Shown: positions 13,312 through 58,023 of the stretch, piece by piece | How positions within the stretch are numbered: position 1 is the first letter of the stretch | Layout: every line of letters begins with the position of its first letter | Assembly: GCA_012516125.1 (NCBI GenBank) | Contig: JAAYXB010000033.1 | Span: 1 to 64,000 of the forward strand | DNA: 64,000 bases | Reading direction: 5' to 3' | Origin: Bacillota bacterium | GTDB taxonomy: Bacteria; Bacillota; SHA-98; UBA4971 | Position numbers and translations under genes: made by a program | The notes under the pieces: generated by a model | What the model saw: the letters and a program-made list of their open reading frames with translations, nothing else | Databases searched by the model: none | Told to the model about the DNA's origin: nothing

Positions 13312-13511
13312 TCTAAGTGGGGGTGCAAAAATGCTCCCGACTCTTGGGAGGGGTTGCCGGTGATTGCACGAGGGGTGTCAAAACCCGGCTGCCTAGCCGG
13401 ACGGGACGGATTTTGTCAAGGCGCCCCGCCTGGGGCGCCGTCCCCGAGTGCAACACCGGCAACCCGGCAACTACTGGAAGAGGGGCGAGGACTAATGCAC
13501 CCTCACTTAGT
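13312..13511. repeat. GGTTGCCGGTG-family structured inverted repeat, copy 1
   Basis: Stem GGGTTGCCGGTGaTTGCACGAGGGG (13351 on) pairs with CCCCGAGTGCAACACCGGCAACCC (13442-13465); outer ends TAAGTGGGGGTGCA / TGCACCCTCACTTA. Confidence 0.65.
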
Positions 13512-41176: not shown

Positions 41177-42304
41177 TCATCCTGTCGCCGTCTTACTCCC
41201 GTGGCGCTCCTCACCGGAACTCGCCTCGCGTTCCACGGCGTCCACGATCTCCTCCGCGGTGATCCCGACGCCGGGCCTGAGATACGTGCGCACGTTCACA
41301 GCGGCTCGTCCGTATAGGGCCTCGCGGACCAGGCCTGCGAGCTGGCCGTGCGCCGACTCCACCACCAGAAGCCGGTCCGCCCTCCGAACGGCATCCGCAA
41401 GCGCCGCTGCAGGAAACGGCCGCAAGGTGATGGGCCTGAAGTACCCGGCCCGGATGCCCCGCGCCCGCAGCACTTCCGCAGCCTCCCGCGCGGCCCGCGC
41501 AACGATGCCGTGGGCCACCAGGACTACCTCTGCGTCTTCGCACCCGTCCTTCTCGAACTCCACGACTGACGGGGCCATCTCCTCGTAGTCGCGGATGTTG
41601 CGCGTAAGCGCCTCGTAAAGCTCGTCCTCGATGCTGAAAGTGTTGCGGAAGTGGGCCGGGGGCCTGTCCAGGCCTGGGGTCCCGGGCTTTCCGACGAAAG
41701 GCTCTGGGGTCGCGAGCGGCACACCTCTGTCCTCGGGATTATACAGGGTGAGCGCTTCGAGCATCTTCCCTTGGTAGCCGTCGCCCAGCACGAATGTGGG
41801 GAACCTCGTCCGCCAGGCGGTGGAGAACGCCTTGATGGTGTAATCGAAGAGGTCCTGGTGGGACGACGTGGAGTACACGATGCGGTGCCCCTCGCCATTG
41901 CCTCCGAGACATGTGAGGCGCACCTCCTGCTGGCTGTAGATCACCGTTGCCGTGGAGGGCCCTCCCCGCTGCTGGATGATCCAAACGGCGGGGATTCGCA
42001 TCATCTCCGCCATGGAGATGGGCTCCTGCATGAGGACGTTGCCGGGCCCTGCGGTCGCTGAGAAAGCCTTTCTGCCGGCCATGACGGCGCCGATGGTGGC
42101 GAAGCCCGCGGAAAGCTCGTCCTCGGTCTGGAGGAAACCGAGGCCATGTTCCCTTGCCAGGACGGCCCAGGTGTGCATGATCTCGTTCTGGGGGGTGATG
42201 GGGTAGCCGCACATCATGTCGGCGCCGGCGGCGAGCGCCGCCCGCGCTACGACTTCGTTCCCCGTCATGAACCTGCGCTGTTCGCGTTCGACCACTCTCA
42301 TCAC
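41177..42304 (-). CDS. 2-oxoacid:ferredoxin oxidoreductase alpha subunit
   Basis: 'FMTGNEVVARAALAAGADMMCGYPITPQNEIMHTWA', 'FSATAGPGNVLMQEPISMAEMMRIPAVWIIQQRGGPSTATV'. Confidence 0.93.
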   Translation of the reverse strand: MMRVVEREQRRFMTGNEVVARAALAAGADMMCGYPITPQNEIMHTWAVLAREHGLGFLQTEDELSAGFATIGAVMAGRKAFSATAGPGNVLMQEPISMAEMMRIPAVWIIQQRGGPSTATVIYSQQEVRLTCLGGNGEGHRIVYSTSSHQDLFDYTIKAFSTAWRTRFPTFVLGDGYQGKMLEALTLYNPEDRGVPLATPEPFVGKPGTPGLDRPPAHFRNTFSIEDELYEALTRNIRDYEEMAPSVVEFEKDGCEDAEVVLVAHGIVARAAREAAEVLRARGIRAGYFRPITLRPFPAAALADAVRRADRLLVVESAHGQLAGLVREALYGRAAVNVRTYLRPGVGITAEEIVDAVEREASSGEERHGSKTATG

Positions 42305-42568
42305 GTCTCGCCGGTGCGGAGACCCCGGGCTTTAGCCCTGGAGCGGTTCACCTCATGACGAGTGTGCTCGAAACGGGGGAGGCCTATACAAGAATGCTGT
42401 TGGGGTCGGGCTGGCGAGAGGTCCCATTGCCGGCTCTACGACGCCGCAACGGGCTCGGTCGCCAGTGTCGCGGCAGTTGACGGGTGGCGGGGCAGCGCTG
42501 CGGCGCCCCAGGTAAGCGGCGGCGTCCGGCCCCGAGGAACTCGCTGGCGCCGGCGAGCCGCGAGGGGG

Positions 42569-43302
42569 TGGTCGGCACGAGACCAGCTTTAGCACCAGGC
42601 TGGTCTGCAAGCGACCATGCTCGCCGGTGACCTGGTCGCGCTGCGTCCACCTCCAGACGCAAATCACAGGATGTGGTCTCGTGGCGACCAGGAGAGGGCG
42701 GAATGTGGTCACCAGACGACCACTTCACGCATAGCGTTGGCCGCGCAGGAACCACTTTCGCACGTTGCTACGCGGGGGTGGTTCGTAGACGACCAGAACG
42801 CAAGTTCAGGTGGGCGCGAGGGAGCCAACTGCGTGCGAAACCTGGTCGCGCCACGACCACCCCATCTCGCCTTCGAAGGGAAAGAGGGCGAAGTTGGCTA
42901 CGGGGCGACCAGGGTCGCCGCCAAAGTGGTCGGTATGGGACCAGCTTCGGGGGCAAGCTGGTCGCGACGGAGCCAGTCTCGTGCATCGGGCGAAAAGGGT
43001 GGTCGAGCAGGAACCAATTCTCGCGCAAGGTTGGGTTGTACAAGACCAGGTTCGCTTCGAACCTGGCTTTGTAGCGACCACCCTCTCCGGCTTACGCCCG
43101 AAGGTGGTCTCGTGGCGACCAGGACGTCTTCCGAGCTGGCAGGCAGGCGACCAACCGGCCGCGGATCCTGGTCGCAAGCCAACCACCACACCGCCTATCG
43201 GGCCGTGGCGACTGTAGGGGTGGTAGCCAGCGATCCAGGATTAGCGCGTGGGTGGCTTCCAGCCGACCAGCCAGCCCCGGCGACCTGGTCGCGGCAAGAC
43301 AG
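42569..43302. repeat. Hierarchical array of 21 palindromic 17-mers (TGGTC-N7-GACCA)
   Basis: Unit starts 42569,42601,42633 | 42674,42706,42738 | 42779,42811,42843 | 42895,42927,42959 | 43000,43032,43064 | 43105,43137,43169 | 43221,43253,43286; TGG and CCA outer triplets kept in all but the last unit. Confidence 0.95.
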
Positions 43303-43465
43303 CCGTCCGTGAGATTGCATCCAGGCGACCACATAGGGGCAATTACATCGTGGCGCCGCCAGCGGAAGCAGTCTGACACGCGGACGTGCGCGCCCGCCGG
43401 ACCACGGGGCGGCGACGACTCCTGGGCGCCACGATGGCAGCACGCACCCGCTTGCAAGCGCTACA

Positions 43466-43526: not shown

Positions 43527-43614
43527 GCCGGAGTGGCGGAACAGGCAGACGCAAGGGACTTAAAATCCCTCGGGCCCTGGGCCCATGCGGGTTCGATCCC
43601 CGCCTCCGGCACCA
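43527..43614 (+). tRNA. tRNA-Leu (anticodon UAA)
   Basis: GCCGGAG/CTCCGGC acceptor, anticodon loop CTTAAAA, long variable arm, T-loop GGTTCGATCCC, encoded CCA. Confidence 0.95.
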
Positions 43615-44150
43615 CCCTTCTTAGGAGCCTGGTGACACGCGCTTTCGCAAACTCGAAGAGATCAGCAGCTACCGAGCAGCTAACGAGAGAATACTGGCCG
43701 GCGCCAGGTCGAGCTGCTGCTACCCCAAAAGTCGGCGAGGGAGCCTGGTCTCCCGTGCCCACCGGCCCCATCCGAGCCTGTCTGTCTGCGCGGCTCCGAC
43801 CGAGGGCGACCCCGGTTGCTCTTTCAAAGACCTCTGATGCTGGCGTTTGACAGCGATTTCCGTAACTTTCGCCCGCGCCGAATCTGTCACGTGGCACAGG
43901 TTCGCGAGTCAGGATCGCTCAGAGCGTTTCACCCTCGCGATCACAGTGGACGGTGATTGCTGGCTGTGGAAGTCAAGGAAGGGCAGTAGAAAGCGACGCC
44001 AGAATCAGAATGTGAAAGGCACTGAGGCAGCCGCTGCCACAGCACTGGTGATGAATAGCAAGCCGACTGTGCCGGATGCACCGCCTGTTTTCTGTGCGGT
44101 TAGAGAAACGTGGGGTCGGGAGCGAAGCGGGTCATCCGGAGGAGGAATAC

Positions 44151-44681
44151 ATGGAGCTTAGAATCGGACTTGTGGCACCGTATCCGCGTCTGGCAGAGCT
44201 TGCGATCGAAGTATGCCGTGAGCTCGGTGAGGACCTGGAAGTGCGCCGTGGTGATCTCAGCGCAGGCGTTGAAGTCGCGAGAGAGATGCAGTCCCGCGGC
44301 GTGGATGTGGTGATCAGCAGGGGTGGCACGGCACTCGCTATCGAGCAAGCGGTGGACATTCCGGTGATTCCCATCCAGGTGACGGGTTTTGACATAGTGA
44401 GGGCCATTCATGCTGCGAAACAGCTTGGAGGCGCAATCGGTGTCGTCGGTTTCAAGAACGTCATCTACGGCACCGAAGGCATCCAGGATGCTCTAGGCGT
44501 CTCACTACGACTCATCTACCTTGAGCACGAAGCCGATGCCGAGGAACAAATCGCGGCGGCTGTGCGAGGGGGTCTCCAGGTCATCGTTGGAGACGCGATA
44601 TCGGCGCGCATCACCGCGAAGTACGGTGCGAAAGGCGTCTTGATTGAATCCGGCAAAGAGGCCATCATCAACAGCATTTAG
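44151..44681 (+). pseudogene. 5' part of interrupted sigma-54 activator: PrpR_N sensor domain
   Basis: ATG with aggagg RBS; 'RIGLVAPYPRLAELAIEVCRELGEDLEVRRGDLSAGVEVAREMQSRGVDVVISRGGTALAIEQ'; stop arises at the element B junction. Confidence 0.88.
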
Positions 44682-46380
44682 GATTTGCTATATCTTCGAT
44701 AGGGACTATTCCCCTCACTTCAATACGGTCTTGGTACACCCACAACTTAATCTGTAGTCTGTCAAACAATTCCTCCCAACTCATTATCTTTTGCGGGAAC
44801 CCAAGAGTCAAGCGTAAAGGGTCTCTGCTCCGAATTATGGCAAAAGCTAGCTCCTCGGTGACGGCTGCTTCCTCCGGCTGGTAAATAACGTCAAATTGTT
44901 CTGCCTCAATCGCCTCCCTCACCGCTGCCACGTTCTGTTCCAATTTGTGAATCGTGTCAATTTCTGGCGAGTACTGCTCATACCGCTGGCGGATAGCCAA
45001 TTCCTGTTCTTTAAGCTCGTTCTGTTGGCGGTTATAGTCTTCGTCCGATAATATTCCGTTGAGGTAAACGTTGGCGAGCCTGCGCTGTTTCTCCTGGATT
45101 TGAAAGAGTTGTTCGTTTATTGGCGAGAGTAAGGTTTCCAGTTCTTCCTTTCTCCGTTCCAAGGTTTCTACATATTCTTCGATGGCTGTCCTCATCTGTT
45201 CTGGGCTACGAAGGAGCTTTACAATGCGGCTTTTAACCTCTTCCGTTAACGCTTCACCGTTAAGGATAGGACTAGTACATCTTGGGCTACCGTCAAGATG
45301 GTTTTTCTTGAGCCTGCCGTTGCACTTGAAGACCAGCGTTTTTCCCGTGTTGTAATACCCGATACCGTAGGCGTGCTGGCATAACCCACAGTTAATACGT
45401 CCTGCAAGTAACGGTTTAGGATACTTTCTGTTGAATCCGCCCCTCGCTCCAACTCTCTTTTCCTGAGCCTTCTCCCACAGGAGAGGGTCAATTATAACAG
45501 GGAAGTCAACCGCGTACCACCCATCCTTGGAATTTGCCGCCTTAGCTCTTTCAACCCGCTCTTGGCTTACCGGAATGCTATCACCGCGCCAGAAGTAGTT
45601 GGTGCCTTTATAAGCGGTGTGGGTAAGGATTCTCTGAACCGTGGTTTCGCTCCACTGGGTGACCGGTTTACCCTTCTTGCCTCGGTGAACGCCGCGAAAT
45701 TGAGAGGGCGTAGGAATACCAAGCTGGGTAAGTTTCTCAGCAACTCTAACCGTACCCATCGGACCGGACTTACCATCACCGTAGACGTACCAGTTATAGA
45801 TGAGCCGGACTATTTTGGCTTCTTCTTCGACAATCTCCCATCGTTGCTTTTCCTTATTCCACTGGTAACCGAATAGCTCTGCGGTACCGAAGAATTTTCC
45901 TTCTTGCGCTCTCTTCTTCTTACCGGTCAGGGTTCTAAGGCGGATTACCTCTCTTTCGTACTCTGCGAACGAGCCCTGAATATTGGAAAAGAGCCTGCCT
46001 TCCGGTGTATCCTCAAATCCACCTTGAACGAAAATAAAGCCTTCACCTTTGGTTCCGCATCGGCGCGGTTTGAGGGCTTCATCCCGAAGTGCCGAGAGGA
46101 TTGCTACCGAGCGCGCAAGCCTGTCCTGCCGGTAAAGGAAGATGGCGTCGTATTCTCCAGCCTGATACTTTTCCCACAGGTTACGGAGGATAGGTCTGTC
46201 GTTAATACCAAGGGCACCGCTGTACCCATCTTCTTTGAAAACATCAGCAGGGGTAATGTGGTATCCTCTCTTTTGAGCCTCCGCCATGCAAATTTCGACT
46301 TGAGTATCGAGAGAGGTACCCTCTACCTGGTCTTCTGTGGAAACTCTTGCCAGTATCGCTGCTCGTTTCCGTAGTATCAC
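44668..46380 (-). CDS. large serine recombinase
   Basis: 'RAAILARVSTEDQVEGTSLDTQVEICMAEA', 'FLYRQDRLARS', recombinase zinc-beta ribbon 'CGLCQHAYGIGYYNTGKTLVFKCNGR'. Confidence 0.95.
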   Translation of the reverse strand: MILRKRAAILARVSTEDQVEGTSLDTQVEICMAEAQKRGYHITPADVFKEDGYSGALGINDRPILRNLWEKYQAGEYDAIFLYRQDRLARSVAILSALRDEALKPRRCGTKGEGFIFVQGGFEDTPEGRLFSNIQGSFAEYEREVIRLRTLTGKKKRAQEGKFFGTAELFGYQWNKEKQRWEIVEEEAKIVRLIYNWYVYGDGKSGPMGTVRVAEKLTQLGIPTPSQFRGVHRGKKGKPVTQWSETTVQRILTHTAYKGTNYFWRGDSIPVSQERVERAKAANSKDGWYAVDFPVIIDPLLWEKAQEKRVGARGGFNRKYPKPLLAGRINCGLCQHAYGIGYYNTGKTLVFKCNGRLKKNHLDGSPRCTSPILNGEALTEEVKSRIVKLLRSPEQMRTAIEEYVETLERRKEELETLLSPINEQLFQIQEKQRRLANVYLNGILSDEDYNRQQNELKEQELAIRQRYEQYSPEIDTIHKLEQNVAAVREAIEAEQFDVIYQPEEAAVTEELAFAIIRSRDPLRLTLGFPQKIMSWEELFDRLQIKLWVYQDRIEVRGIVPIEDIANPKCC

Positions 46381-56634: not shown

Positions 56635-58023
56635 ATGCTGAAAGCGATCGAGGAAGCCAAGCATGTTGCTACTGTCCGAAGGCGCGAACGGCAGAGGGCC
56701 GAGGAGTTCAAGGCCATACTGGATTTCGCGTACGAGGGAATTGTTGCCATAGACCAGTTCGGCCTCGTCAAGGTGTTTAACCCCATTGCCGAGCGGCTCC
56801 TCGGGGTGAGTGCAGCTAGGGCTATCGGTAGGCCCATCACGGAGGTCCTTCCAGGCGTTGGTCTTGACCTCGTCCGGGCAAGTGGTCGACCGGAACTCGG
56901 CGCAGTGCAGCGCCTAGGCAGTACGCTCATTGTGAGCAACCGTGTTCCCATAACCGTGGGTGGGGAGACCGTCGGCGTTGTCTTCACTTTCCAAGATGTC
57001 TCCCGAATACAGCAAGTGGAGAAGGAGGTGAGGCGCGAACTTTATCTCAAAGGGCACGTGGCGAAACACACGTTTGACGACATCATCACGGTTGACGACA
57101 CTATGCGCGAGGTCATCGCACGGGCACGAAGGTTTGCCTCAACTGACTCGACCGTGCTTATTTTCGGCGAGACAGGGACAGGCAAAGAGCTTTTTGCACA
57201 GAGCATCCACAATGCGAGCCGCCGTCGCAACGGACCTTTTGTGGCAGTCAACTGTGCTGCTCTCCCTGAGAGCCTGCTGGAGAGCGAGCTGTTTGGCTAC
57301 GAAGAAGGTGCGTTCACGGGTTCGCGAAAAGGTGGCAAGCCAGGTCTATTCGAGCTTGCTCACGGCGGGACCATATTCCTCGACGAGATCGGCGACATGT
57401 CCATGCAAATCCAGGCTCGCCTTCTCCGAGTGCTTGAACAACGGGAAGTTATGAGGCTGGGTGGCGACAAGGTTCTTCCCGTAGATGTGCGCGTGATTGC
57501 TGCAACCCATAGAGATCTCAAGCGAGCGGTCAGTGATGGGACGTTTCGAGCAGATCTATTCTATCGGCTGAACATACTCACCATTGCCCTTCCGCCCCTG
57601 CGGGAAAGGACCTGTGATATTCCGGCACTCGCTGAGCGCTTCATTGCAGCGTCGTGCCGCAGTCTCGGTATACCGCAAAAGACACTCAGCTCCGGGGCGA
57701 TCACGGCCCTCGTGAGCCACACGTGGCCGGGAAACGTGCGCGAGCTGCGGAACGTGTGCGAGCGGTTGGCAGTCGGTGTGGAGTCTTGCGAAATCGATGA
57801 GGAGACCGTGTGGAAACTACTGGGGCGCGACGATCGCGCTACCGAAAGCACACAGCCTGAGGGGACCGTTACGGTTTCAATCAAAGGGGGTCTTCGCCAG
57901 ATTGAAGACGAGATCATGCGACAGGTGCTCAGAAAGGTAGGTGGCGACAGAACAGAGGCTGCGCGGTTGCTGGGTATCAACCGCAGCACACTCTGGAGGA
58001 GGCTTGGGGCAGGTACCAGTTGA
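56635..58023 (+). pseudogene. 3' part of interrupted sigma-54 activator: PAS - AAA+ - Fis domains
   Basis: '[22 protein letters not shown]', '[40 protein letters not shown]', Fis HTH 'GDRTEAARLLGINRSTLWRRL'; continues the frame of 44151-44675. Confidence 0.9.

Follow-up and report, generated by a model that had tools for sequence, protein, structure and literature searches.

Array of palindromic units upstream of an oxidoreductase operon

The DNA analysed here, referred to as the window, is a stretch of 64,000 nucleotides from a Bacillota bacterium genome of 3.24 Mb in 98 contigs (G000; G-numbers denote the genomes compared and L-numbers denote loci). Positions 42569-43302 of the window are occupied by an array of 21 palindromic units with the 17-bp consensus TGGTC-N7-GACCA, arranged in seven triads. 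The array is located upstream of a 2-oxoacid:ferredoxin oxidoreductase operon, whose start is at 42304 on the minus strand. The features of the locus are listed below.

41177..42304, minus strand: flanking gene, 2-oxoacid:ferredoxin oxidoreductase alpha-type subunit (POR_N, PFOR_II)
42399..43450, no strand: about 1.05 kb (array and flanks) present in the window; the syntenic locus of G004 holds about 150 bp of unrelated sequence
42569..43302, no strand: complete array of seven triads (21 palindromic units)
42569..42649, no strand: triad 1 (units at 42569, 42601, 42633)
42674..42754, no strand: triad 2 (units at 42674, 42706, 42738), preceded by a 24-bp linker
42779..42859, no strand: triad 3 (units at 42779, 42811, 42843), preceded by a 24-bp linker
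42860..42894, no strand: 35-bp linker (52 spacing) between triads 3 and 4
42895..42975, no strand: triad 4 (units at 42895, 42927, 42959)
43000..43080, no strand: triad 5 (units at 43000, 43032, 43064), preceded by a 24-bp linker
43105..43185, no strand: triad 6 (units at 43105, 43137, 43169), preceded by a 24-bp linker
43186..43220, no strand: 35-bp linker (52 spacing) between triads 6 and 7
43221..43302, no strand: terminal triad 7 (units at 43221, 43253, 43286; last gap 16 bp)
43315..43331, no strand: weak degenerate half-unit TTGCATCCAGGCGACCA past the terminal triad
43527..43614, plus strand: flanking gene, tRNA-Leu (taa)

The units start 32, 32, and 41 bp apart, with a step of 52 bp following each third triad, resulting in periods of 105, 116, and 326 bp. 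The module is an 81-bp triad with intra-triad gaps of 15 bp, and it repeats every 105 bp with a 24-bp linker (41-bp step) or every 116 bp with a 35-bp linker (52-bp step). Twelve matches to the unit with at most one mismatch are found in the window, including 11 inside the array, compared with an expectation of 1.9 and a maximum of 6 in 100 shuffles. A coding repeat was ruled out, since none of the steps of 32, 41, and 52 bp is divisible by three and the ORFs overlapping the array lie in differing frames.

The spacings and periods had been claimed in the original prediction, together with an essential invariance of the outer TGG and CCA and a drift at positions 4/5 and 13/14. The spacings and periods were confirmed; TGG and CCA are intact in every unit except the last one, and positions 4/5 and 13/14 do vary. 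The 3x3 'nonad' order of the window array is not general. At the array end, the final triad departs from the regular spacing with a gap of 16 bp (33 spacing). The same trait is found at the end of many arrays, and homologues of the terminal triad end other arrays, such as L028 (G000 C27) and L053 (G001 C11).

Dispersal, gain, and loss of the arrays

The window array is one of approximately 35-40 scattered arrays spread over the contigs of its genome. The exact TGGTC-N7-GACCA unit occurs 229 times in this genome vs 7 times for the reversed control pattern, and a four-unit pattern has 42 forward and 44 reverse matches vs none for the control; the sequence examined outside the window comprised the stretches around arrays and genes. 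With one array as a query, about 35 copies were retrieved in G000 and about 45 in G004. All arrays read, save a few short or degenerate ones, follow the triad rule, and the order of the 24- and 35-bp linkers varies, being for example 35-24-24-35-24-35 elsewhere. Numerous dispersed copies have a common left end plus 50-200 bp of flank.

The syntenic loci of G004, G002, and G005 lack the window array, and an array with 81% identity to it is located elsewhere in G001. No arrays were found in the same-genus genomes G002 and G005, nor in G006 and G010, and the copy number per genome varies from about one to about 45. The shared ends and flanks and the presence or absence between species would be compatible with a transposable or MITE-like element, but a clean empty site or a target duplication was found neither at the window locus nor at L043. 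The dispersed arrays are likely to be non-coding elements, each of which can be gained or lost as a whole, their mobility being inferred.

Two further dispersed repeats were noted in the window: a ~200-bp repeat at 13313-13510, which also flanks many of the array loci of G004, G001, and G000, and a ~138-bp repeat at 43840-43977, directly downstream of tRNA-Leu, with more than 10 copies in G000 and G004.

Conservation and helical phasing in related genomes

Using the four-unit pattern, we identified triads of the same geometry in 10 of 17 genomes belonging to the class. In a set of 400 genomes from the phylum, G391 was the only one outside the class to have them, and all reversed controls were zero. 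The relatives carrying arrays include those named Candidatus Fermentithermobacillaceae. The letters of the half-site vary by lineage, namely TGGTC(C/G) in G000, TGGTCA in G391, G012, and two named MAGs, TGGTCGa in G008 and G011, TGGTAAgt in G013, and TGGCGAaa in G016. The matches obtained in the genome scan from 'Aquifex' QNXQ, Arthrobacter, Bacteroides, and a deltaproteobacterium have no triad architecture and were treated as unrelated or chance matches. The QNXQ01 loci (L064, L069, and L079; labelled Aquifex sp. MAG 11) contain a different repeat of a regulator-like kind, with near-perfect TGGTCATAGTATGACCA palindromes recurring irregularly around genes.

Species-specific weight matrices, applied without imposing the spacing, gave lineage spacings of 31-33, 41-42, 51-52, and 62-63 bp, with rare others, which are near 3, 4, 5, and 6 turns at 10.5 bp. 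Other lineages have other linker lengths, yet their between-module spacing changes mainly in helical-turn steps. The original prediction would have been refuted by spacing in relatives that ignores helical phase; the spacings near 31, 41-42, 51-52, and 62-63 bp, found despite other linkers, do not refute it. In the window alone, the three step sizes are within 1 bp of whole turns, which we estimate at about 2% by chance. The dispersed copies within a genome are not independent, and the weight of the phasing rests on a few lineages with different linkers. A phased multi-site array, with symmetric sites at whole helical turns that are maintained in relatives, is shown; protein binding to these sites is inferred.

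The substitution rate between G000 and G004 is 3.2% in TGG/CCA, 4.8% at positions 4-6, 12% in the unit centre, 15% in the gaps, and 18% in the linkers, as calculated for seven flank-matched array pairs, taken as orthologous, and pooled over the well-aligning pairs. Some of these pairs differ in length, and gene conversion among copies cannot be excluded. The half-sites are under selective constraint, with the letters of the spacers drifting between these two close species.

DNA sites or RNA hairpins

The preference of the original prediction for a protein site on DNA over an RNA stem is supported. Significant covariation, set beforehand as the refuting outcome, was not detected either within units or in spacers. 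Among 237 distinct triads, intra-unit Watson-Crick matching equals the expectation from column composition (0.65 vs 0.64, 0.70 vs 0.66, and 0.63 vs 0.61). In 74 representatives, positions 4-8 have 600 paired cells vs 578 +/- 11 in shuffles, and the linker, dyad, and gap pairings are below the shuffled level. Mismatches have no wobble signature, with G-T (109) not commoner than A-C (130). The strongest covariation connects position 6 or 12 across different units and represents an array-wide choice of C/G or G/C, which might fit one binding specificity per array, or else shared descent. The triad consensus is itself a dyad, in which gap 1 is GGTTGCGCGCGAAGn and gap 2 is the reverse complement of GGTTGCGCGCGAAGn; in single triads, the two arms are complementary no more than in shuffles, and some pairs are anticorrelated. 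A search of Rfam gave no match for the array, and the only Rfam matches in the window are two tRNAs. RNA hairpins were rejected on the basis of the covariation test, the wobble test, and the absence of an Rfam match.

Putative partner protein encoded beside the arrays

Clustering of the ORFs flanking the arrays, with no candidate preset, singled out one uncharacterised protein family of ~250-280 aa with one locus per genome. The adjacent gene was found first in G000, G004, G016, G012, and G391, and then in G009, G008, and G007, i.e. in eight genomes. The family member in the window genome is a single-copy 251-aa protein (C89:5354-6106). In G012 and G391 the gene-side array lies downstream of the gene, and in the other six genomes it lies upstream; for G012 and G007 it is the only array found. 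The probability of chance adjacency in six independent genomes, by our own rough arithmetic from array counts, is ~1e-12 before and ~1e-9 after allowing for thousands of gene families. Within the class, close orthologs are confined to array-bearing genomes. A close ortholog is lacking in G001, G015, and G014, although arrays or a remnant are present; in G001, and likewise in G015, the arrays are accompanied by no more than a distant paralog and gene fragments.

Other recurrent neighbours of the arrays, including response regulators, sugar kinases, and PrpR-type activators, belong to large families and have no consistent position, and they were rejected as candidates. Neither a ParA-type ATPase nor a replication initiator is a recurrent array neighbour. 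The plasmid and phage records contain no full-length relative of the partner protein, and viral contigs have only the nuclease domain in common with it.

The partner protein begins with a winged helix, as indicated by Pfam (MarR_2, HTH_24, and others), which has no match to the C-terminus. In PHROG, each of the 19 homologs hits family 9084 'homing endonuclease' along with related ones, and no HUH/Y1 transposase match was obtained for them in Pfam and PHROG scans. The residues invariant in the 19 homologs are N125, R127, P128, F130, L131, E141, D143, E153, G156, Q158, H159, T163, D179, and K182, of which E141, D143, E153, Q158, H159, D179, and K182 form a putative catalytic set. The AF2 models have a pLDDT of 90.7 for the whole protein and 91.9 for the C-terminus. 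In Foldseek searches, the full model retrieved only generic winged helices, and the best sensible matches of the C-terminal fold were Vsr with DNA (1cw0, TM 0.47, E 1.8) and TnsA, both weak. Published accounts portray the EDxHD enzymes as Vsr-like proteins that dimerise on long target sites (PMC3943268, PMC11879112). Based on the PHROG matches, the invariant residues, the weak Vsr and TnsA matches, and these descriptions, the C-terminal domain is likely a nuclease, although this has not been shown and cleavage is inferred. A PD-(D/E)xK-type core with conserved acidic, His, and Lys residues, as in the Vsr/EDxHD family, is a tentative reading of the same evidence.

Paralogs and their palindromes

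Three further paralogs in G016 adjoin arrays of TGCTA-N5-TAGCA, ACTAT-N9-ATAGT, and GTCAT-N3-ATGAC. In G188, which is outside the class, a homolog adjoins TGTCG-N7-CGACA units, whose geometry is again 17 + 15 = 32 bp, and another contig carries one further array of these units. In a palindrome scan of homolog loci with N excluded, clusters of at least five palindromes were detected at 18 of 58 homolog loci. Neither the 290 shuffles nor the 65 viral-contig loci carrying the nuclease domain alone had any such cluster. About two thirds of the homolog loci have no palindrome cluster with the detector used. Several of the clusters amount to ordinary tandem repeats, whose periods of 16, 34, 75, or 85 bp are not whole turns; helical phasing is therefore limited to the main group and does not extend to every homolog locus, the periods near more distant paralogs being not always helical.

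At L177:1123-1404 (G011 C93), six near-identical TGGCTCTTCCTGAGAGCCA palindromes with a period of 53 bp adjoin a further paralog. The one-contig genome G353 has long tandem palindromic repeats with periods of ~75 and 86 bp (L226 and L227) upstream of two of its six homologs.

Proposed mechanism and alternative explanations

We propose that the array is a multi-site DNA platform for cooperative dimers of the winged-helix/nuclease protein, a reading that we moderately favour, with both binding and cooperativity inferred. The architecture, phasing, and constraint, the lack of RNA covariation, the dispersal, the adjacency of gene and array, and the paralog-specific letters are shown. Each 17-bp palindrome would bind one winged-helix protein dimer, so that an 81-bp triad would hold three dimers, and the triads connected by 24- or 35-bp linkers would occupy almost the same helix face, an arrangement suggestive of cooperative dimer-dimer contacts. 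The most likely binder would be the family member at C89:5354-6106, with its winged helix and Vsr/homing-endonuclease-like domain. The gene-side array may serve as a control site of its own gene, and the other arrays would be non-coding elements gained or lost as units, probably dependent on the protein in trans. Cutting by the nuclease domain, followed by repair, may serve to copy or move arrays; like binding, the nuclease activity, autoregulation, and mobilisation are inferred.

Against the binder model, there are no binding, cleavage, or transposition data, arrays occur without a close ortholog in G001 and G015, and two array classes differ within one genome, TGGTCG in the window and TGGTCC beside the gene. 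Because of this difference in class, the window copy may be an older relative that is not best bound by the present-day protein. The model is also weakened by the lack of a clean empty site or target duplication, the weak Vsr fold match, the many homolog loci without a cluster, the cluster periods other than whole turns, and the downstream position of the array in G012 and G391. A bolder reading, which we consider tentative and slightly more doubtful than not, is an undescribed class of bacterial system in which the winged-helix/Vsr-like nuclease polymerises cooperatively on the phased arrays and spreads or maintains them across the chromosome as non-autonomous elements, with one alphabet per paralog.

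The main rival, which remains possible, is a host-function platform for chromosome organisation or segregation or for control of distant genes, involving the same or another protein, with the nuclease-like domain co-opted or inactive. It is supported by the ~35-40 phased arrays over the contigs and their constrained half-sites, and by the winged-helix fold of the centromere-binding AspA and the chromatin protein TrmBL2, which are generic matches. It is opposed by the patchy distribution, with arrays missing from two genomes of the same genus as well as from G006 and G010, by the absence of the window array at all three syntenic loci and the widely varying copy number, and by the invariance of the putative catalytic residues in 19 homologs. 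The nucleoid, segregation, or regulatory role that the original prediction had offered as inference is unproven, and the evidence points rather to a winged-helix/nuclease protein with arrays that are gained and lost.

It is unlikely that the arrays are merely dispersed transposon-like repeats, with phasing inherited from one ancestral array and an incidental adjacent gene. Many arrays are indeed homologous copies with common ends and flanks, but the 17/15 geometry is found with unrelated letters in other lineages and even in another class (G391, G188), linkers change in turn-sized steps, half-sites are several-fold better conserved than spacers, and adjacency of the gene in eight genomes is very unlikely by chance. 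Least probable is a structured RNA, i.e. a chain of hairpins transcribed from the array, which was already disfavoured. Units can be perfect palindromes, and some gaps give local hairpins, such as GGTTCGCTTCGAACC at 43049-43063. However, covariation does not exceed the marginals, G-U pairs are not favoured, pairing within gaps and across the dyad is below shuffles, the array matches no known RNA family in Rfam, and in units such as TGGTCCCCAGGGGACCA the palindrome extends to the central base, leaving no loop.

Comparison with known systems

The platform model with its partner protein resembles the REPIN/RAYT systems (PMC3116915, PMC8266576), where a single chromosomal nuclease-like gene lies by palindromic DNA with many dispersed non-coding copies and different paralogs are paired with different palindromes. 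The trait of dispersed non-coding palindromic repeats, one of which flanks a cognate single-copy gene, is met here. In contrast to RAYT, a REP-associated tyrosine transposase, the partner protein combines a winged helix with a Vsr/homing-nuclease-like domain and has no HUH/Y1 (IS200/IS605-like) match. REPINs consist of one or two 20-40-bp hairpins, whereas the arrays described here are long, phased, and composed of 17-bp units. The REPIN/RAYT repeats are single-strand hairpins with a 5' tetranucleotide tag, and the hairpin trait fails here, the symmetric units being loopless and not covarying. By analogy, the arrays and their protein are like REPIN/RAYT in logic but not in parts.

The EDxHD/Vsr-like homing endonucleases (I-Bth0305I; PMC3943268) are similar in the PHROG-matching C-terminal domain, with a D/E-rich core and Q-H and K residues. 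Enzymes of this group reportedly have several DNA-binding elements and dimerise on a long target (PMC3943268). Unlike them, the partner protein, for which cleavage is not shown, is fused to a MarR-type winged helix and encoded beside arrays rather than in introns, with dozens of putative cognate arrays per genome. Plasmid centromere and iteron arrays (parS/parC-type) likewise have phased sites beside a gene for a binding protein, binding being inferred in our case, but the present arrays are chromosomal, with tens of dispersed copies and a nuclease-like domain and without a recurrent ParA-type ATPase or replication initiator. The REP/BIME elements of enterobacteria are also dispersed intergenic palindromic repeats; they differ from our arrays, which have no covarying hairpin, a triad/linker spacing rule, and lineage-specific half-site letters.

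The arrays are undescribed in the open-access literature searched, with subscription papers and preprints outside the scope. The arrays and the partner protein fail the defining tests of REPIN/RAYT (no Y1 match, no hairpin covariation), and their function is inferred. The class is known mostly from metagenome assemblies, with arrays often at contig ends, which may explain why they were overlooked. If correct, this would be a new dispersed bacterial DNA element with a partner protein, in which geometry rather than spacer sequence is selected, and a homing-nuclease-like domain would be tied to large chromosomal binding arrays. It would also provide natural sets of paralogs and palindromes for learning winged-helix specificity, and a system showing how helical phase builds cooperative nucleoprotein assemblies.

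Integrated element in the window

A gene for a PrpR-type sigma-54 activator is split into two parts, at 44151-44678 and 56635-58005 of the window, by ~12 kb of lower-GC DNA, which has a serine recombinase gene at its left end (44668-46380, minus strand). This lower-GC DNA is an element integrated within the sigma-54 activator gene.
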